Shown here: piece after piece, positions 9,738 to 53,865 of the stretch
Position numbering within the stretch: the first letter of the stretch is position 1
Layout: every line of letters starts with the position of its first letter
Source of the DNA: Firmicutes bacterium HGW-Firmicutes-1
GTDB lineage: Bacteria; Bacillota; Clostridia; Lachnospirales; Vallitaleaceae
Length of the DNA stretch: 64,000 nt
NCBI GenBank assembly: GCA_002841625.1
Contig: PHAG01000001.1
Location: 62,001-126,000, forward strand
Reading direction: 5' to 3'
Program-made: the position numbers and the translations under genes
Notes under the pieces: model-generated
Told to the model about the DNA's origin: nothing
Database searches by the model: none
The model's input: only the letters and a program-made list of their open reading frames with translations

Positions 9738-10868
9738 TTACCCTTTAATATTATCCACAAATAAATTAATAATTTCAGCTATTGTTTCGTTCTCAAGATA
9801 TGGATGCATTGGCAAACTTAAAATTCTGTTGCTGATATCTTCGGATATTGGAAAATCACCTTTTTTATAGCCTAATTTCCTATTTGCAGCTTGTAAATGA
9901 AGTGGCTTACGATAATATATTGCAGTCTGGATACCTTTATCATTTATTTCTCTCATTAATGATTCTCTTACTTCATAGTCCTTTGTAAGCACTGAGTACT
10001 GAGCCCAAGCGGAACTATACTCTTCTGGTACTTGAGGCGTCTTAATAAGCTCCTTTAAGCCAGCAGTGTACTTATTTGCCACTTCATTTCTTAGATCGAT
10101 TTCCGAGTCAAATATAGACAGTTTTGCAAGTAGAATTGCTGCTTGAATCGTATCAAGTCTACCATTTATTCCAATCCTAATATTGTCGTACTTATCTATT
10201 CCTTGACCATGAACCCGAATAGACTTTATGGCTTCGTAAAGTAAAGAATCTCTTGTAAATATTGCACCTCCATCTCCGTAACAGCCCAAAGGCTTAGCAG
10301 GAAAAAATGATGTTGACGCTGCATCGCCAAAGCTTCCAGCTTTTCTGCCTTTATACCTGCCTCCAAAACCTTGCGCCGCATCTTCAAGAACCCTTATATT
10401 ATATTTTGCAGCAATAGCCTCAATTTTCTCATAGTCAGCAGGTAATCCGAATAAATCAACTGGAATGACCACTCTTGGTTTCAAGCCGTCTTCTTCAATT
10501 ATCCTTATGATGGCTTGTTCAAGTAATTCAGGGTCAATATTGTAAGTTTCAGGATTTATATCAACGAAAACTGGTGTAGCCCCTAATAGACTAACAACCT
10601 CTGAGGTTGCTATAAATGTAAAAGGTGTTGTGAAAACTGCATCTCCTTTTCCTATTTCCCAAGCTAATAAAGGTAGTAGCAAAGCATCCGTACCACTTGA
10701 GCAGGTCACCGCGTAATCTACTCCAACATATTCTGCCAGTTTTCTTTCAAGCTCTAATACCTCGGGTCCCATTATATATTTGCCATGTTCTAAAACCCTG
10801 TCAATACTATTGTTAATCTCTGATTTTAGCTTTCGATATTGTATAGACAAATCATTCATCGGTATCAT
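9738..10868 (-). CDS. DegT/DnrJ/EryC1 sugar aminotransferase (WbpE-like)
   Basis: A PLP-dependent aminotransferase acting on a nucleotide keto-sugar. Motifs are TCSSGTDALLLPL, DLFGLPADYE, LEDAAQGFGG and the PLP lysine in SFFPAKPLGCYGDGGA. FDSEIDLRN and LPMHPYL fit the sub-family that aminates the C3 position (WbpE/WlbC-like). I prefer ATG 10866-10868 (376 residues), with GTGAGG nine bases upstream; a GTG five codons earlier is possible. It overlaps the end of the acyltransferase gene, so the two are translationally coupled. Together with the oxidoreductase and acyltransferase upstream it would make a 3-acetamido sugar, for example a UDP-diacetamido-uronic acid. Confidence 0.9.
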   Translation of the reverse strand: MIPMNDLSIQYRKLKSEINNSIDRVLEHGKYIMGPEVLELERKLAEYVGVDYAVTCSSGTDALLLPLLAWEIGKGDAVFTTPFTFIATSEVVSLLGATPVFVDINPETYNIDPELLEQAIIRIIEEDGLKPRVVIPVDLFGLPADYEKIEAIAAKYNIRVLEDAAQGFGGRYKGRKAGSFGDAASTSFFPAKPLGCYGDGGAIFTRDSLLYEAIKSIRVHGQGIDKYDNIRIGINGRLDTIQAAILLAKLSIFDSEIDLRNEVANKYTAGLKELIKTPQVPEEYSSAWAQYSVLTKDYEVRESLMREINDKGIQTAIYYRKPLHLQAANRKLGYKKGDFPISEDISNRILSLPMHPYLENETIAEIINLFVDNIKG

Positions 10869-11448
10869 AATTTTCAACCTCACTTAAGCAACCATTCTTT
10901 TCGATATAATTTCTACTGCAAATCTTACAGCTCAGTCCATCCTTAAGCTGTTCTCCACACTCACACACCCAACCCTTTCTTTTTGCAGGCACCCCAACCA
11001 TGAGTGTATAATCAGGCACATCGGAAGCAACGACTGCTCCAGCAGCAATAAGTGCGTGGCGACCTATCGTGTGCCCACATACAATTGTTGCATTTGCTCC
11101 AATTGATGCACCTTCCTTTACCAGCGTCTTAAGATATTCCTCTCTGCCCTTTTTAGGATATTTACTCCTAGGAGTTAAATCATTTGTAAACACCATAGAT
11201 GGACCACAAAATACATAATCTTCTAATTCCACTCCCTCATATACTGAAACATTGTTTTGGATTTTTACATTATTTCCAAGGTGTACATTATTTGAAATAT
11301 TAACGTTTTGTCCGATCACACAATTTTGTCCGATTTTTACACCTTTTTGAATATGAGAAAAATGCCATATTTTTGTGCCACTTCCAATTTTTACTTCCTC
11401 ATCTATATAAGCGCTTTCATGAACATAATAATCTTTATTTTGCATCAT
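10852..11448 (-). CDS. Hexapeptide-repeat sugar N-acyltransferase (WbpD-like) with zinc-ribbon tail
   Basis: The 198-residue left-handed beta-helix protein has many hexapeptide turns (VKIGSGTKIWHFSHIQKG, IGQNCVIGQNVNIS, IGANATIVCGHTIGRHALI) and ends its helix in GVPAKRKGW. That is the hallmark of enzymes acetylating the 3-amino group of UDP-sugars (WbpD/WlbB). The C-terminal tail CECGEQLKDGLSCKIC has four cysteines in a zinc-ribbon spacing, seen in many Clostridial members. AAGGAG precedes the ATG-ATG start. It is the middle gene of the oxidoreductase-acyltransferase-aminotransferase set. Confidence 0.9.
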   Translation of the reverse strand: MMQNKDYYVHESAYIDEEVKIGSGTKIWHFSHIQKGVKIGQNCVIGQNVNISNNVHLGNNVKIQNNVSVYEGVELEDYVFCGPSMVFTNDLTPRSKYPKKGREEYLKTLVKEGASIGANATIVCGHTIGRHALIAAGAVVASDVPDYTLMVGVPAKRKGWVCECGEQLKDGLSCKICSRNYIEKNGCLSEVENYDTDE

Positions 11449-11517
11449 TTATATGATCTCCTTGATATTTACGGTAGTGATAGGAACTCGCCAGCCACTT
11501 CGATATGAGCCCCTAAC

Positions 11518-12495
11518 CTAACACTTTAGGTTAAGTTGTTTTGATACCTCTTCAAGTATTTTTACAACCTCATAACCACTCTGCCCATCCGCAACTGTTA
11601 TATCTGCGTCAAGGTTTTTAACAAAATACTCTAGCTCATTTTTAAGTGGAGCGGATTTTTCATAATCAATGTGCTCTGTATCAGCTACTCTTACGATAGG
11701 AGAAGCGTTTTCCCAATCAATACTTTTATTATAAAAAACAATATTTTGTTCTGCGTTCGAATCCTCAAATACAAGTGTACCTTTATCGCCTACTACAATT
11801 AATCTACGCTCCAAAAAAGGATATAGCCAAGAAACAAATATATGTGCTTTCACATTATTAGGGTATGTGAGACTTGCCATAACAACATCATGTATATTCT
11901 GTTGTAGAAAACAGCCACCCTCAGCACTCATGCTAATAGGTGTCGTTCCTATTAAATAATTAATAACAGATATATCATGAGGTGCAAATGAATAAAATAC
12001 ATTTTCTTCTGTCCGAACTGTACCCATATTCAAACGTGTTGAGTAAAGATATAAAAGCTTACCAATTTTCCCCTGATCAATTAACTCCTTGATTTTTTTA
12101 ATTGCTGGATGAAACAAAAGCAAATGCCCTACCATTAGCTTACATTCAAAAACTTGAGATAACCAAATTAATCTATTTGCATCAATCGTTGAAAGAGCAA
12201 TTGGCTTTTCAATTAAGACATTCTTTTTTTGTTTTAATAATTGACTTCCTATTTCATAATGTGTCTGAGCTGGTGTTGCAATTACATAACCATCATAATT
12301 ATCCCTTAAAGAGTCTTTTACATTTTGATAACCTTTGACAACGTTATATTGTAATAAACTCTCTGATAAGCGGTTGGGATCATTTTCTACAATTCCAGCT
12401 AAATTTCCCATTTCATGTAGTGTTCTTATATGGTTTTGACCCCATCGACCTGCTCCGATAACACAGATTTTTTTATTTTTTAATACATTACACAC
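11518..12495 (-). CDS. Gfo/Idh/MocA-family NAD-dependent sugar oxidoreductase (WbpB-like)
   Basis: An N-terminal Rossmann fold (ICVIGAGRWGQNHIRTLHEMG) is followed by YDGYVIATPAQTHYEI and the conserved LIEKPIAL, the catalytic EKP-lysine motif of the family. It probably oxidises a nucleotide sugar at C3 to give the keto-sugar used by the aminotransferase two genes downstream. I chose the GTG start at 12493-12495 because GGGGAG lies seven bases before it (325 residues). A longer frame to 12576 exists, but its extra codons are an AT-rich run of KSYK-like repeats and overlap the upstream gene. Confidence 0.87.
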   Translation of the reverse strand: MCNVLKNKKICVIGAGRWGQNHIRTLHEMGNLAGIVENDPNRLSESLLQYNVVKGYQNVKDSLRDNYDGYVIATPAQTHYEIGSQLLKQKKNVLIEKPIALSTIDANRLIWLSQVFECKLMVGHLLLFHPAIKKIKELIDQGKIGKLLYLYSTRLNMGTVRTEENVFYSFAPHDISVINYLIGTTPISMSAEGGCFLQQNIHDVVMASLTYPNNVKAHIFVSWLYPFLERRLIVVGDKGTLVFEDSNAEQNIVFYNKSIDWENASPIVRVADTEHIDYEKSAPLKNELEYFVKNLDADITVADGQSGYEVVKILEEVSKQLNLKC

Positions 12496-12553
12496 TATGA
12501 ATCTCCCCATCACATATTTTATAGTTTTTATAGGTTTTACATTTTTATAGCTT

Positions 12554-15500
12554 TTATAGCTTTTTATATATTTCAATAAGTTTTAAAATTTCTTTGTCCC
12601 TGTCATGATATTTTTCTGCATAACTTCTACCTTGAATACCTAAATTTTTTAGCATATCCCTATTTTCCAGAACGAAGGTTATTTTTTCTTTTATATTATC
12701 CGGATTGGCTATAATAATGGGAAGCTCCTTTGGATATTTTTCTCTCATAAAGTCACTTATCCAGCAAATAACTGGTTTTTCTAAAGCCATTGCCTCAACA
12801 GATGTTGGTCCATATCTACCTATCAGAAGTTGGTCAATAACCAAGTCCGCTTCTGTGATAACATTTTCCGGTGATATTTCCTGTATAAGCTTAAAGTTTA
12901 TATCATAAAATATTTTTAATTCATTGATTGCTTCCAGAACGTACTTCGTTCCATATAATTCCGGAGTACTGGAAACATGTACAATGGTAAATAGCTTATT
13001 ATGATCAACTTCATCTTTAGGTTTGTATTTCTTTAAATCAATGATTAAATTCAGTTGTCTTACATCTTCAAAGTAATCTTTTACGTATTCACGAAGTTCG
13101 TAATCGCTAACCAAACAGCACTCAACATATTTAGAGAAGTATTTCATTCTATTTATAATATCAAGTTCCTCTTGAATTGAGGTCATTTTTACATAAGGAT
13201 TTAATTGTGAAGCCTTTGAATATAACCTTACATCTTGCCCCCAAAAGTGCATCAGTACCTTTTTATTCAATTCCTTTAGAACACTTAAATCCGAATGATC
13301 AAGGGTAAGCGATGTAAAGGAATGAAAATGGAAAACATCAAATAATGGAATGAGCTTTAACGCTGCATCTATTGTATGATTTAATTTGTTTTTATCTTTT
13401 TCAAAAAAAGTAATATCTATTTCAAAGTCAGATGCTCGATTCGTATAATTAGGTAAGTAATTGAATACCTTTGTGTAAATACCCTTTGCATTTAGGGCTT
13501 CTGATAATTTTATTGATCTGCTGGTTAGATCCATAGTGCCATGTAGCACTTTGATTCCCTTATCAACTTTTGTCTCTGGTATTGTTTTATTGATTTCATC
13601 TATTAATGATTTCTGTTCATTTTTTCTAGACTCTAAATTCTTTTTCGTACCTGTAGAAAACTCTTTTTTATTAATATCACTATATGAAAAAGCGTTAGCA
13701 ATTTGACTTACTATTCCACCCATTTCACAATAACTCATTACCGCTTCACTTAAATATTGAATTGCATACTTATGTGCTATTTTCCCTGACATAACAGGCA
13801 TGATTTTAATGATAAACAATCTTTCTTTCATTTCAAGAAATTGTATTTCATGTAAGTTGATTAGCTTTAAGGAAATGTTAAGATATTTCATAAAAATATG
13901 AATTAGCTCTTCGTTGGTTAATAAAGAAGCACCAATAAAGCTATCTGTACGATGCAAAATATGCTGTAAGACTATTTTCATTCTTTTTAATTCAAAAGTA
14001 TTAGACAGAGTTACAACCTTTATATTTTTTAATTTAGGTATTATTCTTAAGTATATTTTATAAGCACTTTTAAATTCCATTCCATCCATATAATACTTGC
14101 TTATCAAATCCAAGCTATCCTCTTCATCCTGCTGCTCTTTATTGTTCATTTTTACTTTCAAAGCTTCAATTAACTCTTGCTTGACTTTTTCTGACACAAG
14201 TACTTCCAAGCATTTATCAACTTCTACAATTGAACAATCAAGAAGTTGATCTAATAAAAAATATTTAAATATAAACTCCATTTTCTCATTACCAGTTATT
14301 TTAGCATTATAAAACTGTGCAAGTTCTGTATATCTACCTGTATAGAAATATGCGTTAATAATTTCAAAAAGGCAGTTTGTTAAAACTATAATGTCCTCTA
14401 TCTCATATACCTTTTTCAAACACTCTTCATATCTGCCTAAATAATAATGTGAAATAATCATCATTCTTAAAATGTTATCCTGATTCCCAACTGTATAAAA
14501 AGTATACATAACATTGTTAGAAACTTCTAAATTCAAGAAATTTTTATTCATTTCAAGGAATTTATTCATATGTAATAATGCGGTTTCGTACTCCTTCTTA
14601 ACAAAAGAAATAAACGCTTTATAGTAAATAAAATCAATATAGTCCGGTTGAATTGAAAGTGCCATATGAATGATTGTTTCTGCATCATCATATCGTAAAC
14701 TTCTTAGGTAAATGATTGCAGCGTTATTATAATACATCAGCATGACGCCTTTGATTAACTTATTTTCTTTAATGAGCCGTATATAGATATCTACTTGCTT
14801 TAATGCCTCAGCTAAATTCCCATACATAAAATAACTAGAACTCAATTGACATCTGTAGTAGATGTTTCTTGGAACTTTCTCGAGCATCTTAATGAGCATT
14901 GATGCTGTTCTGTTAAATTTTTTCTCTCTAACCTCCTCTGTCATAATATAGCCATAATGAAGTATTACAATATCCATGTTTTTAGTCGGAGAATTGCAAA
15001 TAGGTTGATTGTGTATAGAACTTGCATAATGAAATTGGCCACTATTTCTGAATATACGTTGTTGTGTGATAACCCCATATTGTGTGCACTCTACATTGGT
15101 AAAGCTTTTTACTCTTAACGTAAAGGTATTGTGTTTTTTATGATTCTCTTGTGAAAATTCAGCAATTAGCTTATCGATTTCAGCTTTTTCAAATTCTTCA
15201 TCTGCATCTACTACAAATAAGTATTCTCCTTCCGCAAAAAGAGTGCTACGATTCCTAGCCTCAGAAAAATTATTGTTCCACGAAAATAAATAGATATTGT
15301 TAGTATACTTTCTGGCAATTTCCAAGGTATTGTCATCAGAACCTGTATCAACAATTACGATTTCCGCTAAACCCGAATCCATAAGTGGTTTTAGACTTGA
15401 TAAGCATCTATCTAAATTCTTTTCTTCATTTTTTGTAATCATGCAAATACTTAAAGTATAGGGATATCTACTATTTTCACATCTTAACTTCTGAATATAA

Positions 15501-16759
15501 AAATATATGACATTCATTCTTTCTGGATAATAGGTACTGATACTCTTTAAAAGATCAATCGCCATTTCAATCTGTTGATTATTTAACAACTCATTTACTT
15601 CATTCATTTTATTTATAAATAAGCTGTCACTTGTATAGTATTCCAAATATTTTTCTGTGTCACAATTGCAATAAAAATTATTGTAACAATCTATATATAT
15701 ATTTAATACCTTTAAAATCTTTTCTTTTTTCAAAGGTTCATCGGATTTATCACTCATATAATCTAGGTATGTCTTTAGAATATAGAGGTATTCTACAAAT
15801 ACTTCTTGGCTAGTAAAGTCATTCATTTTTTCATAATAGCTAATAATGAACTGATAAATATATTCCGCTGCATTCAAGTCATTGTCTAAAAGATGATTCA
15901 TCAGGGCTTTTTGGATGTTTATATTAAGATAAATCATAAAATCAGGTATAACTTTTTCCATTACAAAGTCTTTTAATAACCAGCAATAGTACACTTCCTT
16001 TTCACTCAAGCCTATCTTTGTAATGTGTTTTAATAATGTTTTATGACATATATTTTTATCTTCTCTAAAAATCTTCCCAAATTTCAAATATGTTAAATAA
16101 TGATTTTTTATGTTTAAATGTAAAAATTGATTATTAAGTTTAACTTGATTTACTGTTTCAATCATGAGCATATTCTTTTCTAATAAAATACAGAATTCAA
16201 GTTGAAGGCTGGGTGGAAGCGTTAGAATATAAGCTTCGTACCACAGGGAAATTTCATTATAATAGTTACCTTGCAGAAGCTTTATTAAATTTGTTTCTAT
16301 ATTGAAGTGATTATTAATTAAACTAAAATCCTCCATCGTAATGCCCATGTTTTTATTGAAGCCTCTTATACATCTATTGTAAATTATCACTTCTTCTCTA
16401 ATAAAAAACAGCGACTCATCTTTACACAGATAGCTTTTTATATTTAAGGTCATATTGTAGAGATCTTCCTTCTCAAGTAATTCAATTATTTCTTGAATCA
16501 GTTCTTCATTGAGTTGTAGCCCTTCTTCAATAATCATTATTTTCTGTCCAAGTGATGATGCAAAACAAAAATCTTTAAAATTGCAATCATTTTCAGAATA
16601 CTTATATATACAATGTCTATATGGAATATCAAGGGAATCTATTTCATTGCTTATGATAATGAGTTCTGGATTTTCATTAAGAAGGAGTTGTTCTAACACT
16701 TCAATATAATTCTTAAGCTCCTCCTCATTAGTTCGTATTATGATACTTAGTTCATTCAT
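12554..16759 (-). CDS. Giant multi-domain glycosyltransferase (GT2 + TPR + GT-B)
   Basis: At 1401 residues this is by far the largest gene here. The start is ATG 16757-16759 with GGGAGG six bases upstream. Residues 1-100 (LSIIIRTNEEELKNYIEVLE) look like a degenerate GT-A domain. Near residue 434 a complete GT2 domain begins (LSICMITKNEEKNLDRCLSS; VIVDTGSDDNTLEIA; FVVDADEEFE with the DxD-like metal site). Residues about 640-1000 are helical TPR-like repeats. The last ~330 residues (from IKVLHGTMDLTSRSI, about residue 1071) form a GT-B domain with EAMALEKPVICWISDFM. That C-terminal domain is paralogous to the separate protein at 20863-21870. GT2-TPR proteins decorate surface and spore proteins in Firmicutes. 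Acceptor unknown; the adjacent appendage-like proteins are candidates. Confidence 0.88.
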   Translation of the reverse strand: MNELSIIIRTNEEELKNYIEVLEQLLLNENPELIIISNEIDSLDIPYRHCIYKYSENDCNFKDFCFASSLGQKIMIIEEGLQLNEELIQEIIELLEKEDLYNMTLNIKSYLCKDESLFFIREEVIIYNRCIRGFNKNMGITMEDFSLINNHFNIETNLIKLLQGNYYNEISLWYEAYILTLPPSLQLEFCILLEKNMLMIETVNQVKLNNQFLHLNIKNHYLTYLKFGKIFREDKNICHKTLLKHITKIGLSEKEVYYCWLLKDFVMEKVIPDFMIYLNINIQKALMNHLLDNDLNAAEYIYQFIISYYEKMNDFTSQEVFVEYLYILKTYLDYMSDKSDEPLKKEKILKVLNIYIDCYNNFYCNCDTEKYLEYYTSDSLFINKMNEVNELLNNQQIEMAIDLLKSISTYYPERMNVIYFYIQKLRCENSRYPYTLSICMITKNEEKNLDRCLSSLKPLMDSGLAEIVIVDTGSDDNTLEIARKYTNNIYLFSWNNNFSEARNRSTLFAEGEYLFVVDADEEFEKAEIDKLIAEFSQENHKKHNTFTLRVKSFTNVECTQYGVITQQRIFRNSGQFHYASSIHNQPICNSPTKNMDIVILHYGYIMTEEVREKKFNRTASMLIKMLEKVPRNIYYRCQLSSSYFMYGNLAEALKQVDIYIRLIKENKLIKGVMLMYYNNAAIIYLRSLRYDDAETIIHMALSIQPDYIDFIYYKAFISFVKKEYETALLHMNKFLEMNKNFLNLEVSNNVMYTFYTVGNQDNILRMMIISHYYLGRYEECLKKVYEIEDIIVLTNCLFEIINAYFYTGRYTELAQFYNAKITGNEKMEFIFKYFLLDQLLDCSIVEVDKCLEVLVSEKVKQELIEALKVKMNNKEQQDEEDSLDLISKYYMDGMEFKSAYKIYLRIIPKLKNIKVVTLSNTFELKRMKIVLQHILHRTDSFIGASLLTNEELIHIFMKYLNISLKLINLHEIQFLEMKERLFIIKIMPVMSGKIAHKYAIQYLSEAVMSYCEMGGIVSQIANAFSYSDINKKEFSTGTKKNLESRKNEQKSLIDEINKTIPETKVDKGIKVLHGTMDLTSRSIKLSEALNAKGIYTKVFNYLPNYTNRASDFEIDITFFEKDKNKLNHTIDAALKLIPLFDVFHFHSFTSLTLDHSDLSVLKELNKKVLMHFWGQDVRLYSKASQLNPYVKMTSIQEELDIINRMKYFSKYVECCLVSDYELREYVKDYFEDVRQLNLIIDLKKYKPKDEVDHNKLFTIVHVSSTPELYGTKYVLEAINELKIFYDINFKLIQEISPENVITEADLVIDQLLIGRYGPTSVEAMALEKPVICWISDFMREKYPKELPIIIANPDNIKEKITFVLENRDMLKNLGIQGRSYAEKYHDRDKEILKLIEIYKKL

Positions 16760-16880
16760 TACTACCCTCCCAGCATAAAACAACTTATATAGTACTAGTT
16801 TATTATCTGACTAATTGCTTTGTTACACACTTCTAATTCAACCATAACCGTACTCCAATAATAACCAATTAATATAAGTC

Positions 16881-16908
16881 ACAAGCTTAACCCAAAAACC
16901 ATATTATG
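16881..16908 (+). promoter_or_regulatory. Possible late-sporulation (SigK-like) promoter
   Basis: AC (16881-16882), 17 bases, then CATATTATG (16900-16908): one mismatch to the SigK -10 form CATANNNTA. It would give a long leader of about 120 bases before the gene at 17032, which makes it uncertain. The same AC-17-CATA arrangement occurs before the coat-like gene at 53521. Confidence 0.3.
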
Positions 16909-17031
16909 TATTGAGATATCTTAACTCAATAAGAGATATTTTTGTACAACCCTCATGTCGGTAAAGCGATTTTTATAAAGAATTAGGATATTTTAGCTCA
17001 AACATTATTATTTTAAAAAGGAGGTGACATT

Positions 17032-17394
17032 ATGGGACAAATTCAAACTGGTATTGGTATTGCTGATGCAACATTAAATCGTACTGGTAGGGAAACAGGA
17101 TTTCAAAGTGTACCTTTCCAATTCTCTACAACCACTAATACTACAATATGGGAAACAATAGATTTGACTAACGAGTTAATGGGAACTGTCGTCATTATAG
17201 GAACTGATATAGGTACTGGTGCAACAATGGGCGTTTTAATTAATGGTCTTAATACCATTGCAGTAACTGATAATGCAACATTCACAAGATCTGTTGATCA
17301 ACTCAACAGCATAACTGTTACATATGACTCTGGTGCAGCTGGTGTAGCGTCAACGTTAACGCTTTCTCTTGCAGCAAACAAACTTGAACTTTAG
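17032..17394 (+). CDS. Putative endospore-appendage-like structural protein (Ena/DUF3992-like), first of three
   Basis: A small, Thr/Gly/Asn-rich, all-beta protein of 120 residues without cysteine and without signal peptide. The pattern TTIWETIDLTNELMGTVVIIG, then VLINGLNTIAV, ATFTRSVDQLNSITVTYD and a final LTLSLAANKLEL suggests a single jelly-roll domain, as in the Bacillus S-Ena pilins. It is clearly paralogous to the protein ending at 18236 (FxSxPFQ, TIWE, GTVVIIG, INGL, TDN.TF). The ribosome site AAGGAGG is seven bases before the ATG. It sits on the plus strand amid minus-strand sugar genes. The Ena assignment rests on fold-level resemblance only; it could be another spore-surface or S-layer-like protein. 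Confidence 0.6.
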   Translation: MGQIQTGIGIADATLNRTGRETGFQSVPFQFSTTTNTTIWETIDLTNELMGTVVIIGTDIGTGATMGVLINGLNTIAVTDNATFTRSVDQLNSITVTYDSGAAGVASTLTLSLAANKLEL

Positions 17395-17479
17395 TTGATT
17401 AAGTTCTACCAATGATGAATAATCGCTTTACCCTCACAATGGGATTTACCTAATAAAAGTTAAGGGAGGATAGATAATC

Positions 17480-17866
17480 ATGTTTACGACTGACTGTATT
17501 ATTACTGAAAATCTTGCTGGCAATATCGAGTTAAAGGATAGTCATTATCATATTATTTGGCAAGCAATTAATATAAGTGCTGCGGTTACAATTAAAATAC
17601 AAAATATATCAGATAACTTTATGAAAATAAGAATGGAAATAGAAAAAGAAAAGTGCACCTTAATAGAAATAGCCCCTCATGAAGAAAGAACTATAACAGT
17701 ATCAAATGTTCTCCTTATTGAGATACAATTGAGTAATAGATCTGATAATACTATCTGCCCTTATGCTAGTTATCAAATCATTATTCATTACCAGTTAGAA
17801 CCAACACCCCATAAGAAACATGCCACAAAATTTTCTTGTGGAGATTCTTGTTGGTATTCACTTTAA
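17480..17866 (+). CDS. Small beta-rich protein of the appendage-like cluster, second of three
   Basis: A 128-residue protein of unknown function with alternating beta pattern (HYHIIWQAINISAAVTIKIQNIS; IAPHEERTITVSNVLLIEIQLS) ending in SYQIIIHYQL plus a basic, Cys-containing tail (FSCGDSCWYSL). Its domain size and the W-A-I / final Y-x-I pattern match its two neighbours, so it is likely a divergent member of the same fold, perhaps a cap, base or anchoring subunit. GGGAGG lies about ten bases before the ATG. The reading frame of the next gene's open frame overlaps its 3' end, but that gene's ribosome site starts only after this stop codon. Confidence 0.6.
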   Translation: MFTTDCIITENLAGNIELKDSHYHIIWQAINISAAVTIKIQNISDNFMKIRMEIEKEKCTLIEIAPHEERTITVSNVLLIEIQLSNRSDNTICPYASYQIIIHYQLEPTPHKKHATKFSCGDSCWYSL

Positions 17867-17880
17867 AAGGAGGTTAATTT

Positions 17881-18236
17881 ATGGGATAAATAAATGTTGT
17901 GGTGGAACTGCTAATGCGTCAGCATGTTTTATCGTAAATAGTAAAACATATGGCTTTACAAGCATACCCTTTCAACTAAATAAAACCAGTACCAATACAA
18001 TATGGGAGGCCATTGGCTTACCAGGCTTGTCAGGAACAGTTGTCATAATTGGTAACATCATAGCAGGAACAACGAGAGTGGCTATTAACGGTCTTCATAC
18101 AACTCAAATAACAGATAATGAAACCTTTGCAATAAGTTCGAATCCACTATGCTCGGTCGTACTCACTTATACCTCAGCAGAAGGAGAATGCAGTTCATTT
18201 ACCGCTTCAATAAGTGCCGCAAGATTTGAATATTAA
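17881..18236 (+). CDS. Endospore-appendage-like structural protein, third of three; start region frameshifted
   Basis: About 118 residues beginning GINKCCGGTANASACFIVNS and then paralogous to the protein at 17032 (GFTSIPFQ, NTIWEAI, GTVVIIGN, INGLHTTQITDNETF). It has a vicinal Cys pair near the N-terminus and three more cysteines, like the cross-linking cysteines of Bacillus Ena subunits. A perfect ribosome site AGGAGG (17868-17873) lies seven bases before ATG 17881, but that ATG reads ATG-GGA-TAA. The protein frame is -1 relative to it: re-reading the last A of GGA gives M-G-I-N-K-C-C. A lost base, a sequencing error or real -1 slippage would all explain it. The upstream ATG at 17820 is in frame but has no ribosome site and overlaps the previous gene. 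Confidence 0.6.
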
Positions 18237-18255
18237 TATTCAAATCTTACTTTTT
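18221..18255. terminator. Perfect 28-bp palindrome over two convergent stop codons (bidirectional terminator)
   Basis: AAGATTTGAATATT (18221-18234) is followed at once by its exact reverse complement (18235-18248), then T5 on the plus strand. It contains both stop codons (overlapping as TTAA) and encodes the C-terminal RFEY of both the appendage-like protein (plus) and the acyltransferase (minus). Confidence 0.7.
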
Positions 18256-18778
18256 CTTCATCGACGATTACCTTTCCTACAATTCTTATTGGTGTTCCAT
18301 GTGCAATTGTAAAATCCGGTATATTCATATTTACAAGGCTATTTGCCCCAATTACACAATGATTACCAATAGATACACCTTTTGTTATAATACTCATACC
18401 TCCAATATAGCTGTTATTAGCGATGTGTATATCACCTTTTTTAAATTCAGCTTTACCTCCTGTTAATACATATTCAACAGAATCATGTGTAACAATTTGA
18501 ACACCGCTTGATATATGGCAAAAGTCTCCTATCGTTACAATTCCATTTATACCTTCAATTACAGTAAAAGGTCCAATCCATACGTTAGCACCTACTTTTA
18601 TATTTCCCATAATGACACTACTATCATAAATTGTTGTATTTTCACCACATTTTAATAATTTAGCCTTTTCCCATCGATCAAATAGTAGTTCATTAGAAGG
18701 TAATACACGACTGAATTCCTTAAGCATTTTATTTCTTTTTTCACACAAATATTCTTCTATAGATTGATCAAATTCCAT
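18233..18778 (-). CDS. Hexapeptide-repeat acyltransferase (LbetaH), sugar-modifying
   Basis: A 181-residue left-handed beta-helix acyltransferase. The first ~45 residues are helical, followed by hexapeptide turns (TTIYDSSVIMGNIKVGANVWI; VTIGDFCHISSGVQIVTHDS; IHIANNSYIGGMSIITKGVS; IGNHCVIGANSLVNMNIPDF) and the typical end AHGTPIRIVGKV. THDS supplies the likely catalytic histidine. Such proteins acetylate amino or hydroxyl groups of sugars. It lies four bases after the DegT aminotransferase gene, implying that it acylates the amino group made there. GAGGGA precedes the ATG. Its last codons lie in a palindrome shared with the convergent gene. Confidence 0.85.
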   Translation of the reverse strand: MEFDQSIEEYLCEKRNKMLKEFSRVLPSNELLFDRWEKAKLLKCGENTTIYDSSVIMGNIKVGANVWIGPFTVIEGINGIVTIGDFCHISSGVQIVTHDSVEYVLTGGKAEFKKGDIHIANNSYIGGMSIITKGVSIGNHCVIGANSLVNMNIPDFTIAHGTPIRIVGKVIVDEEKVRFEY

Positions 18779-18782
18779 ATGA

Positions 18783-19886
18783 TTATTCCCTCATAACTTC
18801 AATTAAATTCGAAACAACATATTCGATATCTTCTACCGAAAGGTATGTATGCATTGGTAACGCAAGCCCTTGTTTATATGCATTTATTGAATTTCCAAAT
18901 GCGCTATAGTTGTAACTATACTTTTCCAAATAATATTGTTGTAAATGAACCGCGTATGCTCCGATATTTGTTTCGATTCCTTTCATTTTTAATGCTTTCA
19001 TAACTTTATCTCTATTGATACCATTACTAAGAAGAATATGATAAGTTTGATAAACATGCTTGCAATACTCCTTGCAAATCGGTATTTTAACTTCTTCTAA
19101 ATCACTTAACATTTGAAAATACTTTTCTGCAAGCAATCTTCTTTTAGAAATAATATTCTGTAGTTTTGGAATCTGAGCCTTCCCAATAGCTCCTTGTATA
19201 TTTGTCATACGATAATTGTAGCCTGGCATAACAAGTACTTTACCCGCTTCAGTATTTAACATTCCGTGATCTCTGAGAAGCCTAAGCTTAATTGCAAGCT
19301 TAGTATTATTGGTTACAACCACGCCACCCTCTCCTGTTGTTATGACTTTTCGAGGATGAAAGCTAAAACAACCAACATCCCCTAAAGTACCCGCTTTAAC
19401 GCCCTTATACTCAGCCCCAAGCGCACATGCAGCATCTTCTATAATCGATAAATGGTATTTTTTTGATAACTCAATAATCTGATCCATATCCGCTACATGA
19501 CCGAATTCATGAACTGGCATGATTGCTCTCGTTTTTCCAGTAATTAGCTTTTCAATTTTAGAAGTATCAATACAAAATGTATCCTCACATATATCACATA
19601 AAACCGTTTTTGCGCCAACTAACTCAACTACGTTTGCAGATGCAGGAAAAGTAAAATCAGGAACAATAACCTCATCCTTAGGACCTATATCTAAGGCATG
19701 TAATGCAAGATGTAAAGCTGCTGTTCCGCTACTTAACGCAATTACATGACTTACTTCTAAATATTTTGAAATCAAACTTTCAAATGCCTCTACCCATTCT
19801 CCATGGGCAAGCCATTTTGAAGCTAATACAGCCTTTATTTCTTCAAGCTCCTCTTGACCAATTTCTGGATCAGCTAATTTTATCAC
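18783..19886 (-). CDS. DegT/DnrJ/EryC1 sugar aminotransferase, second copy
   Basis: A 367-residue fold-type-I PLP enzyme with ALSSGTAALHLALHAL, PDFTFPASANVV, IEDAACALGAEY and the PLP lysine in CFSFHPRKVITTGEGG. The SFHPRK form is that of the PseC/ArnB/PglE-like 4-aminotransferases rather than the WbpE form seen at 9738, so the two copies probably make different amino sugars. The start is GTG (19884-19886), overlapping the stop of the epimerase/dehydratase gene by four bases (GTGA), with AGGAG upstream. The pathway would be: dehydratase, this aminotransferase, then the acyltransferase downstream. Confidence 0.9.
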   Translation of the reverse strand: MIKLADPEIGQEELEEIKAVLASKWLAHGEWVEAFESLISKYLEVSHVIALSSGTAALHLALHALDIGPKDEVIVPDFTFPASANVVELVGAKTVLCDICEDTFCIDTSKIEKLITGKTRAIMPVHEFGHVADMDQIIELSKKYHLSIIEDAACALGAEYKGVKAGTLGDVGCFSFHPRKVITTGEGGVVVTNNTKLAIKLRLLRDHGMLNTEAGKVLVMPGYNYRMTNIQGAIGKAQIPKLQNIISKRRLLAEKYFQMLSDLEEVKIPICKEYCKHVYQTYHILLSNGINRDKVMKALKMKGIETNIGAYAVHLQQYYLEKYSYNYSAFGNSINAYKQGLALPMHTYLSVEDIEYVVSNLIEVMRE

Positions 19887-20848
19887 GACGAAATACTCCT
19901 ATACCAAGCAATTGTTTTTTCTAATCCTTTTGTTAAGTCAATCTTTGGTTCAAAATCTAATACCTTTCTAGCCCTCTCAATACTTGGTATTCTGAGTTCA
20001 ACATCCACATAACTTTTAGGTACATATTTTATATTAGATTTAGAATATGCAATACTTTTCACTAGCTGTGCAAGCATCGAAATCGTAATTGTTCCTCGTG
20101 GATTTCCTATATTAAAAGAACTCCCAATGGCTTCTTTTTTTTCTAAACAAAGCATTAGTCCACATATAAAATCATCTATATAACACCAAGAGCGTATTTG
20201 ATCACCATCTCCATGTATTAAGATTTCTTCGTTTTTTATAGCTCTTAAAATGAATTGATGAATTGCTCCTTCTCCTACCTGTCCTGGTCCATAAACATTA
20301 AAAGGCCTAATGGATACAACGGGAAAACCGTACTCCTTGTAATAACTATGAGCTAAATGCTCACCTGCTAATTTACTAACTGAATACGTCCATCTAGCTT
20401 CTCCAACTGGTTGTAAATTCGTCGTATCTTCTTCGTCTACTCTGAATGCATAGGAACCAAATACTTCAGAGGTTGAAATTTCAATTATCCTGTCTATGTT
20501 CTTTGCATTTTCTTTTAGTGCTTCTAGTAAATTATAAGTTCCAATCATATTTACCTTCATCGTTTCTACTGGATTCTTTATAACAGTATCTATTCCTGCG
20601 ATCGCAGCTAAGTGAACTATAATATTAGGTTTAAACTTGCATAGCACTTCACTTACATGCTCGTAATCGAGTATATCACCTTGAATGAGATTTATATTTG
20701 CTTTACTTAGTAAATCTGTATCTTTTATAGAGTTTCTTCTCAAATTATCATATATCACAATATCATTATTTTCACACAACACTGCACATAGTTTAGTTCC
20801 GATAAAACCGGCTCCGCCTGTTAAGAAAATTCTTTTACCTCTTATCAT
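19883..20848 (-). CDS. NAD-dependent nucleotide-sugar epimerase/dehydratase (extended SDR)
   Basis: A Rossmann protein with GKRIFLTGGAGFIGTKL at the N-terminus, HLAAIAGIDTV, ISTSEVFGSY, the catalytic YSVSK (Tyr-x-x-x-Lys) and SIRPFNVYGPGQ. The last matches the GDP/UDP/dTDP-sugar 4,6-dehydratase and 4-epimerase branch. I use ATG 20846-20848 (321 residues), because the TTG-GGG-GTA stretch upstream is its ribosome site. It is coupled to the aminotransferase gene by a 4-base overlap and lies 14 bp after the GT-B gene. The nucleotide sugar is not identifiable by eye. Confidence 0.88.
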   Translation of the reverse strand: MIRGKRIFLTGGAGFIGTKLCAVLCENNDIVIYDNLRRNSIKDTDLLSKANINLIQGDILDYEHVSEVLCKFKPNIIVHLAAIAGIDTVIKNPVETMKVNMIGTYNLLEALKENAKNIDRIIEISTSEVFGSYAFRVDEEDTTNLQPVGEARWTYSVSKLAGEHLAHSYYKEYGFPVVSIRPFNVYGPGQVGEGAIHQFILRAIKNEEILIHGDGDQIRSWCYIDDFICGLMLCLEKKEAIGSSFNIGNPRGTITISMLAQLVKSIAYSKSNIKYVPKSYVDVELRIPSIERARKVLDFEPKIDLTKGLEKTIAWYRSISS

Positions 20849-20862
20849 ACTTACCCCCAAAA

Positions 20863-21870
20863 TTAATCTACTTGATATAACTCTATGAATCTTCTACTTA
20901 GTTTATTAATGTCATGATGCTTTTTTGCGTATTTTCTTGACTTCATTCCTATATCACTTAAGCAATCTCTATTATTCAATAAAAATTCTATTTTCTCCTT
21001 AATGTTAGTTGGATTAGCCGAAATAATTGGCAATTCTCTTGGGTATTTTTCTTGCATAAAATCACTAATATAGCATACAACAGGTTTGCCAAACGACATA
21101 TTTTCGATGGAACATAATCCATAAGAGCCTATTAGTATTTGATCAATAATAATATCAGCATTTACATATGTTTTTTTGGCTTCTTCATATGATATTCCTT
21201 GAATAAGTTTGAAATCGAAATCATATTTGCTTTGTAACATTTCAATTGCTTGAAGTATATGGATTGTACCTTTTATTTCTGGACTTGTCGGAGCATGAAC
21301 AATTGTTATTTTTTTATTTTTACTAGGTTCTTCTATTTGGTTAAACTCATTTAGATCTATTGCTTGAGGTATAATGACTAAATTCGAATAATAGTCCTTA
21401 ACATATTCATATAGTTCATAATCACTCACAATACAAGTATCAATATATTTAGCAAGTTGTTCTAATCGACGCTTAATTGCATCTTCCTTTAAGCATTTTA
21501 CATTTACAAATGGACTTAACTTAACAGCCTGAGAATATATCCTAACGTCAGATCCCCAATGATGCATGACTACTTTCTTATTAAGTTCTTTAAGCAAGGG
21601 TAAGTCCGAACCATCTAATGTTAAACTAGTGCCAAAATGATAATGAAACACGTCAACATCTGCAATTATTCTAGAAGCAAGTAATTTTGTTGCTTCATTT
21701 GCTTCAAGAATACTACTGAATGATTTAATATTCATGACCATATCGGATTTATATCCTAAATAATTAGGATAATAATTAATTGCTTTCGCATCCTCACCAA
21801 CTTTCTTGAGACCTTCAACTATAATATGCATTTGATTGGCAATTTCCATAGTTCCATGAAGAATTCTCAA
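20863..21870 (-). CDS. GT-B glycosyltransferase, stand-alone paralogue of the giant enzyme's C-terminus
   Basis: A 335-residue glycosyltransferase with GT-B features: YHFGTSLTLDGSDLPLLKEL, VMHHWGSDVRIYSQA, IVHAPTSPEIKGT and, in the donor-binding half, SIENMSFGKPVVCYISDFMQ. It aligns along its whole length with residues ~1071-1401 of the protein at 12554 (LHGTM start, LT LD.SDL, HHWGSDVR/HFWGQDVR, VSDYEL.EYVKDY). The start is TTG (21868-21870), with AAGGGA five bases upstream and agreement with the paralogue's domain boundary. It is the first gene of the second sugar set and may add the sugar that this set makes. Confidence 0.86.
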   Translation of the reverse strand: MRILHGTMEIANQMHIIVEGLKKVGEDAKAINYYPNYLGYKSDMVMNIKSFSSILEANEATKLLASRIIADVDVFHYHFGTSLTLDGSDLPLLKELNKKVVMHHWGSDVRIYSQAVKLSPFVNVKCLKEDAIKRRLEQLAKYIDTCIVSDYELYEYVKDYYSNLVIIPQAIDLNEFNQIEEPSKNKKITIVHAPTSPEIKGTIHILQAIEMLQSKYDFDFKLIQGISYEEAKKTYVNADIIIDQILIGSYGLCSIENMSFGKPVVCYISDFMQEKYPRELPIISANPTNIKEKIEFLLNNRDCLSDIGMKSRKYAKKHHDINKLSRRFIELYQVD

Positions 21871-53520: not shown

Positions 53521-53865
53521 ATGGCTGACGGATTTATAGGTGATTTTGATACAGTATCATTATGCAGGTATATTGGTCAAACAGTAACAATTTTCACTGC
53601 TAGTGGAGGCCTTTCCGGTCATGGTTTTACTGGGATTTTAATCGCTGCAAACGATTGTTTTGTAAAGTTAATATCTAGAATTGGAGCTGCACCTGATTGC
53701 CCAGTAGGTAGTACTTGTGGTGTTCCACCAAGAGCAGGTTATGGATATGGTGGATGTGGTCTTGGTTATGATGCAGTTGGTGCTGGATTAGCTTATGGTG
53801 GTCTTGGTTCAGTAGTAGTTATTCCTACAGATAAGATTGTTTCATTCGTTCATAATGCAATCTAG
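53521..53865 (+). CDS. Small Gly/Tyr-rich spore-coat-like protein
   Basis: A 114-residue protein. The N-terminal half (YIGQTVTIFTASGGLSGHGF; TGILIAANDCFVKLIS) and the C-terminal IPTDKIVSFVHNAI form one small Sm-like beta barrel, reminiscent of DUF2642-type coat proteins. The barrel is interrupted by a loop rich in Gly, Tyr, Cys and Pro (CPVGSTCGVPPRAGYGYGGC and on). It has four to five cysteines and no signal peptide. AAAAGGAGG precedes the ATG, a SigK-like promoter lies upstream, and a strong terminator follows. It is a paralogue of the next small protein. A spore coat or exosporium role is inferred, not shown. Confidence 0.7.
   Translation: MADGFIGDFDTVSLCRYIGQTVTIFTASGGLSGHGFTGILIAANDCFVKLISRIGAAPDCPVGSTCGVPPRAGYGYGGCGLGYDAVGAGLAYGGLGSVVVIPTDKIVSFVHNAI

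Follow-up and report, generated by a model that had tools for sequence, protein, structure and literature searches.

The endospore appendages (ENAs) of the Bacillus cereus group include the S-ENA (Ena1A/B/C and Ena2) and the L-ENA (Ena3A), which are made of DUF3992 proteins. A 2021 review reported ena1/ena2 clusters without homologues found outside this group (PMC8619143), and a 2026 paper mentions ENAs in general terms for both Bacillus and Clostridium (PMC12921279). In parallel, the F-ENA fibres of Bacillus, Paenibacillus and Clostridia have been described as built from DUF4183 subunits; in a clostridial example, five Ser and three Thr residues bear additional density, which probably represents O-glycans (PMC11952670). 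In Clostridioides difficile, the gene of SgtA, a protein with a GT-A domain and TPRs, lies immediately upstream of bclA3, and SgtA puts O-GlcNAc on Thr residues of BclA3 (PMC7157674), a spore-surface protein that is collagen-like and not an ENA. The ribbon appendages of Clostridium taeniosporum (P29a/b, GP85) are likewise clostridial, contain a glycoprotein and have sigma-K-type promoters, with their proteins containing DUF11 and collagen-like regions and no relation to ENA being reported in the available portion of PMC5749712. The locus presented here shares with the B. cereus S- and L-ENA the protein family (genes A and B), the predicted fold (B and C), several ENA paralogues per locus, an N-terminal Cys-Cys (C) and a probable sigma-K promoter, whereas it differs from them in its clostridial host, its cysteine-free subunit A, its low sequence identity to the ENA structures (7–18% in the model alignments) and the giant glycosyltransferase alongside. 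Its three ENA genes share one orientation, unlike those of Bacillus, where ena1C points against ena1B (PMC12921279). Among the passages of open-licence full texts that our search covered, with most of the subscription literature lying outside it, none described a glycosyltransferase linked to a DUF3992 fibre.

The window, i.e., the whole stretch of 64,000 nucleotides analysed, belongs to a genome of 3.95 Mb (G000), probably of a relative of Vallitalea (Vallitaleaceae, Lachnospirales), which has G001 as a relative in the same genus, and the gpr (PF03418) and spoIIP (PF07454) genes detected in it with Pfam indicate a host equipped to sporulate. The first-pass annotation had described three short plus-strand genes, two of them clear paralogues, amid minus-strand sugar genes extending from 9738 to 21870, and the open reading frames and Pfam matches agree with this layout, A and C being 43% identical and all three frames being found where it had placed them:

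9738 to 10883, minus strand: DegT aminotransferase, WbpE-like (4qgr 403 bits, WbpE 349 bits, also QdtB 272 bits); recurs in G001 and G013
10852 to 11448, minus strand: hexapeptide acyltransferase, WlbB-like (3mqg 198 bits); recurs in G001 and G013
11518 to 12576, minus strand: Gfo/Idh/MocA oxidoreductase, probably the sugar C3 oxidation step (PF01408, PDB matches); beside the giant glycosyltransferase in G013
12554 to 16783, minus strand: giant glycosyltransferase GT2-TPR of 1409 aa, with GT2 domain (PF00535, E 1.4e-21), TPR region and GT4-like end
16881 to 16911, plus strand: promoter-like element ACAAG-N14-CATATTATGTAT upstream of gene A, fitting the sigma-K consensus save for the last base and common to eight other ENA genes of the family
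17032 to 17394, plus strand: gene A, ENA subunit of 120 aa (PF13157, 26.4 bits), paralogue of C, cysteine-free, 25% Ser+Thr
17480 to 17866, plus strand: gene B, ENA protein of 128 aa (PF13157, 29.4 bits), on a separate branch of the tree and possibly anchor-like, its model matching ENA structures
17886 to 18236, plus strand: body of gene C, ENA subunit with N-terminal Cys-Cys, its model matching ENA structures
18233 to 18778, minus strand: second hexapeptide acyltransferase (PF00132; 8vr6 155 bits)
18783 to 19886, minus strand: second DegT aminotransferase, PseC-like (TIGR03588 315.5 bits, under the cut-off of 423.5; 8vr3 323 bits)
19883 to 20860, minus strand: NAD-dependent epimerase/dehydratase, 4,6-dehydratase-like (PF01370; TIGR01181 195.7 bits, under the cut-off of 365.1)
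20863 to 21870, minus strand: GT4-like glycosyltransferase (Glycos_transf_1 21.3, under the cut-off of 26.4), 47% identical to the end of the giant glycosyltransferase

A 15-nt inverted repeat (16960–16974 and 17418–17432, 93% complementary, 443 nt apart) flanks gene A. Rfam gave no match between 9000 and 24000 of the window, PHROGs none for A, B or C in a check for phage origin, and PADLOC none for the giant glycosyltransferase or A.

By family and predicted fold, the trio belongs firmly to the ENA (DUF3992/PF13157) superfamily. In the profile check, A and B both exceed the Pfam cut-off of 22 bits for PF13157 (DUF3992, “Endospore appendages”), and C, which has no Pfam match, is placed in the superfamily through its identity to A. 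No NCBIfam model reached E 1 with any of the three proteins, and PDB searches with A and B as single sequences found no ENA. A profile of 14 A/C-type proteins reached Ena1C (9t3p, E 3.8e-4) and Ena3A (8pdz, E 5.2e-3) in the PDB, with a yeast adhesin scoring between them; the B profile reached no ENA chain, and since the direct comparison of the A/C and B profiles was weak (20.6% probability), the union of A/C with B rests on Pfam and fold. PF13799 (DUF4183) matched none of A, B and C, so F-ENA, a different subunit family, was rejected as the family of the trio; it was also found in none of the 22 family genomes, in a search run without a positive control.

AlphaFold2 models were made for B and C, from alignments of three and five sequences, respectively, and both are eight-stranded jelly-rolls like the solved ENA subunits (pLDDT 69.0 for B and 76.5 for C), with C having a low-confidence or disordered N-terminal stretch that carries the Cys-Cys. 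Foldseek matched each model to four ENA entries of the PDB, at E 1.4e-5 to 7e-5 for B and E 7.2e-6 to 5.6e-4 for C, with Ena3A the best in both cases (1.4e-5 and 7.2e-6), followed by Ena1C and Ena2A, and with 7a02 (Ena1B, S-ENA) ranking fifth for B and sixth for C behind one parechovirus capsid chain. A second structure aligner gave the ENA entries Z 13.1–11.8 for C against 9.3 for the next fold (lowest ENA +2.5), with an rmsd of 5.3–5.9 in three of the four ENA alignments, and Z 11.9–10.6 for B against 9.4 (lowest ENA +1.2). The predicted folds are therefore ENA-like, as the first reading of the locus had supposed, and folds unlike the Ena jelly-roll, the outcome that would have spoken against it, did not appear. 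An ENA fold may, of course, also build a coat or exosporium lattice or rings instead of a free pilus, as does Ena1C, which makes nonameric rings and no fibres (PMC12921279), and A without the cysteines that lock the ENA helix, together with a C of G001 without its C-terminal partner cysteine, would suit such an assembly; nevertheless, the C model resembles not only Ena1C but also Ena3A and Ena2A, which do form fibres, and C retains the disordered N-terminal stretch with Cys-Cys, for which reasons we regard a lattice or ring as quite unlikely.

The N-terminal vicinal cysteines, which the first-pass annotation had invoked for cross-linking, are present in C (in the frame of its body) and absent from A and B of the window, with B of G001 having them, and because A contains no cysteine at all, this argument is limited to C. 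The cysteines of C in the window, among which equivalents of the acceptor residues Cys24 and Cys109 of Ena1B were sought, are at positions 14, 89 and 102, while C of G001 has none after Cys16. The start of C is irregular: as listed from 17820, the gene overlaps B, and the ATG at 17881 has good ribosome-site spacing but meets a stop after two codons; the body lies in a different frame, open from about 17886. The cause may be an assembly error, a recent lesion or a non-canonical start. If it were a lesion, the locus might be decaying in this strain, with C broken and the fibre no longer made, and the intact C of G001 would agree with that; against it, the body of C is open and 71% identical to C of G001, the best conserved of the three, with the lowest dN/dS of the trio (0.10, dS being near saturation), A and B are intact, and an assembly error or a non-canonical start is equally likely, and so we hold decay to be decidedly improbable.

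A tree of 24 ENA proteins from 8 genomes (G057, G097 and phylum-level matches left out) places the 8 B-type proteins in one supported group (100/99) and the ten A/C proteins linked to the giant glycosyltransferase, plus the second ENA of G001, in another (100/99). Within the latter, A of the window pairs with A of G001 (100/97) and C with C (99/98), so the A/C duplication is older than the split of these two species. The distribution of PF13157 is patchy, with matches in 6 of 22 family genomes, 8 of 59 relatives, 4 of 391 genomes of the class sample (the own genome included, and two being weak stretches of very long frames) and 5 of 398 of the phylum sample (also with the own genome). The B profile matched 10 of 392 order genomes, namely seven of the family of the window, G035 and two weak cases, and B as query in the named-genome scan found 2 loci only.

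Several relatives carry ENA genes of other make-up. Locus L034 (8555–11001, G035) has five ENA genes, four A/C-like and one B-type, most of them far richer in cysteine than those of the window and with no glycosyltransferase match nearby. L035 (G057) is a tandem array of proteins of about 224 aa and about 700 aa with repeated weak ENA-domain matches. In L031, L033 and L039, the B-type proteins of three relatives bear cysteine-rich N-terminal extensions that recall the cysteine-bearing N-terminal linker reported for Ena1C (PMC12921279). At L029 (10627–11715), the second ENA gene of G001 is divergent from a gene for a 164-aa BclA_C protein (PF18573, E 6.6e-43) with a Cys-Cys-rich N-terminus, and by analogy with the bclA-ena3A pair of the B. 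cereus L-ENA, this could possibly be a clostridial L-ENA with a tip protein; the ENA protein of L029 had no match in a plasmid collection, and no such BclA_C-type protein was found in the genome of the window, in a search without a positive control.

The pairing of the ENA genes with the giant glycosyltransferase is the new part, beyond the first-pass annotation. This enzyme, whose coding start is probably at 16759 (MNELSIII), has its PF00535 domain at residues 445–548 and TPR matches under the cut-off at about 606–750; a GT2/GT-A domain followed by TPRs, encoded beside a putative spore-surface substrate, recalls SgtA in architecture, although SgtA has 358 aa and the enzyme here 1409 aa, with a long N-terminal part and the GT4-like end. 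It is the sole near-full-length copy in its genome. Some match is present in 12 of 22 family genomes, but in 5 (G000, G001, G009, G013, G020) the match begins at the first residues and extends at least as far as residue 1033, the protein of G009 having 1030 aa and lacking the GT4-like end; in the order, 25 of 392 genomes gave a match with E no higher than 1e-30, and outside the five these matches span no more than a portion of the enzyme. In all five, B and at least one C-type ENA gene lie beside the glycosyltransferase gene, the nearest ENA gene being 248 (G000), 263 (G001), 71 (G009), 115 (G013) and 90 bp (G020) away, and the arrangement is divergent in G000 and G001, of one genus, and convergent in G009, G013 and G020, of another. 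An adjacency kept through rearrangement speaks for a functional link, with only two genera represented.

Looked at from the ENA side, the giant glycosyltransferase adjoins 5 of the 9 A/B/C-type loci examined and is absent from L029, L030, L032 and L034; the divergent PF13157 loci L035 and L036 also gave no match to it. The survey result that would have counted against the first-pass annotation, homologues mainly in non-sporulating species without nearby glycosyltransferases, did not turn up. The four loci without the enzyme nonetheless leave room for an ENA fibre whose neighbouring glycosyltransferase and sugar genes serve another spore-surface glycoprotein or polysaccharide, adjacency reflecting a shared sporulation locus; rhamnose-type and other surface-polysaccharide genes are indeed near in G013 and G020, and the linked C subunits of G020 are not very rich in Ser/Thr. 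The adjacency in five of five genomes and in two arrangements speaks against this, as does G009, where the enzyme has no other sugar gene beside it in the stretches examined, and we consider another substrate unlikely, although to be taken seriously.

Ser and Thr make up 25% of A and C (27% in G001) and 16% of B, against a mean of 11.1% (sd 2.6) for 219 proteins of at least 150 aa from the examined loci, only one of which reaches 25%. The ten linked A/C subunits are richer in them than six unlinked ones (Mann–Whitney p 0.008, kinship ignored), including the three C subunits of G020 with a lower 16–20%. As for the sugars themselves, we take the 9738–12576 set to fit a 2,3-diamino sugar route and the 18233–20860 set to fit a 4-acylamino-4,6-dideoxy sugar, so that the genes, which vary between genomes, fit two acylated amino sugars. 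The first set recurs beside the glycosyltransferase in G013 (60–73% identity) and in G001 (81–84%, the oxidoreductase being absent at that place), while the 18 kb of G001 examined hold no copy of the second, other genes standing in its place; such a pattern agrees with an initiating enzyme that is conserved and outer sugars that vary. The earlier proposal of a spore-surface fibre with acylated amino sugars is thus supported in part, by the ENA family and fold, the sporulation genes and the conserved glycosyltransferase neighbour, but in the stretches examined G001 and G009 do not keep the wider sugar island as a block.

The promoter element was first noticed, as ACAAG-N14-CATA, on comparing the window with G001, where it precedes A of both and B of G001, and six further cases (the second ENA of G001; B of G009; B, C2 and C3 of G020; B of G013) place six of the nine motif-bearing ENA genes outside that first set. 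It occurs within 250 nt upstream of 9 of 24 ENA genes against 0 of 228 other frames of at least 100 aa, and in 601,700 strand-bases it is found 10 times, all but one of them upstream of ENA genes; the remaining ENA genes of these five genomes lie downstream of, and in the same direction as, one with the motif; it is absent before the ENA genes of G005, G021 and G035. Since the window alone holds one match against 0.81 expected by chance, the strength of the motif lies in its position and recurrence. It contains the sigma-K spacing printed in PMC5749712 and, as a sequence motif, agrees with the consensus at 7 of 8 positions in the window and at 8 of 8 in several relatives, and sigma-K probably controls the ena genes, according to PMC12921279. 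Three of the five orthologues of the glycosyltransferase have AACA-N16-NATANNNTA within 120 nt upstream, compared with 8 of 255 frames. The extended promoter was rejected as a mark of a whole sporulation regulon: the genome gave 8 matches and the reversed control 4, with five of the 8 falling inside reading frames and only that of gene A lying close upstream of a gene (133 nt). Elsewhere in the window, at 53521–53865, a 114-aa glycine-rich protein without Pfam match, a candidate spore coat protein, has a perfect ACA-N16-CATAN3TA site upstream.

Taken together, we think it fairly probable that this locus encodes a sporulation-expressed ENA-type spore-surface fibre, O-glycosylated by a dedicated enzyme of the C. 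difficile SgtA kind. The family, the predicted fold, the promoter motif, the conserved adjacency and the Ser/Thr richness are computed observations, whereas we infer from them that a fibre exists, what A, B and C do in it, what the enzyme acts on and which sugars are made. The mother cell would transcribe A-B-C late in sporulation from the sigma-K-like promoter, and C, probably together with A, would build the shaft through beta-sheet augmentation, with the N-terminal tail of C and its Cys-Cys catching on the turn before, while B would be a specialised ENA protein, perhaps a spore anchor like Ena1C in Bacillus. In the manner of SgtA with BclA3, the GT2-TPR enzyme would attach the first O-linked sugar to Ser/Thr residues of A and C, and its GT4-like part and the neighbouring genes would extend this sugar with acylated amino sugars, 9738–12576 supplying a 3-amino sugar and 18233–20860 a 4-amino-4,6-dideoxy sugar. 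SgtA-BclA3 and the density on the clostridial F-ENA serve as precedents for this reading. Against this explanation, we count the missing Pfam match of C, the B profile reaching no ENA, the weak A/C–B profile link, the models from five and three sequences, the rmsd of 5.3–5.9 for C, the cysteine-free A, the missing C-terminal cysteine in C of G001, the out-of-frame ATG of C, the four of nine loci without the enzyme, the 16–20% Ser+Thr in C of G020, the motif-free G005, G021 and G035, and the two genera only.

With this locus, the DUF3992 type extends to Clostridia in the form of several genes side by side, paired with one particular glycosyltransferase, and as it names a putative substrate, the enzyme and the sugar genes, glycosylation of a DUF3992 fibre and its effect on spore adhesion become testable. 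More tentatively, and with less than an even chance in our estimation, this would be a clostridial DUF3992 branch that gained its own O-glycosylation enzyme and in which subunit A gave up disulfide cross-linking. The result would be an ENA pilus covered with glycans and in part free of cysteine, on which the sugars vary between species through exchange of the neighbouring sugar genes. If the glycosylated fibre is real, the spores may carry sugar-coated fibres, made of proteins like the spore-surface fibre proteins of B. cereus.
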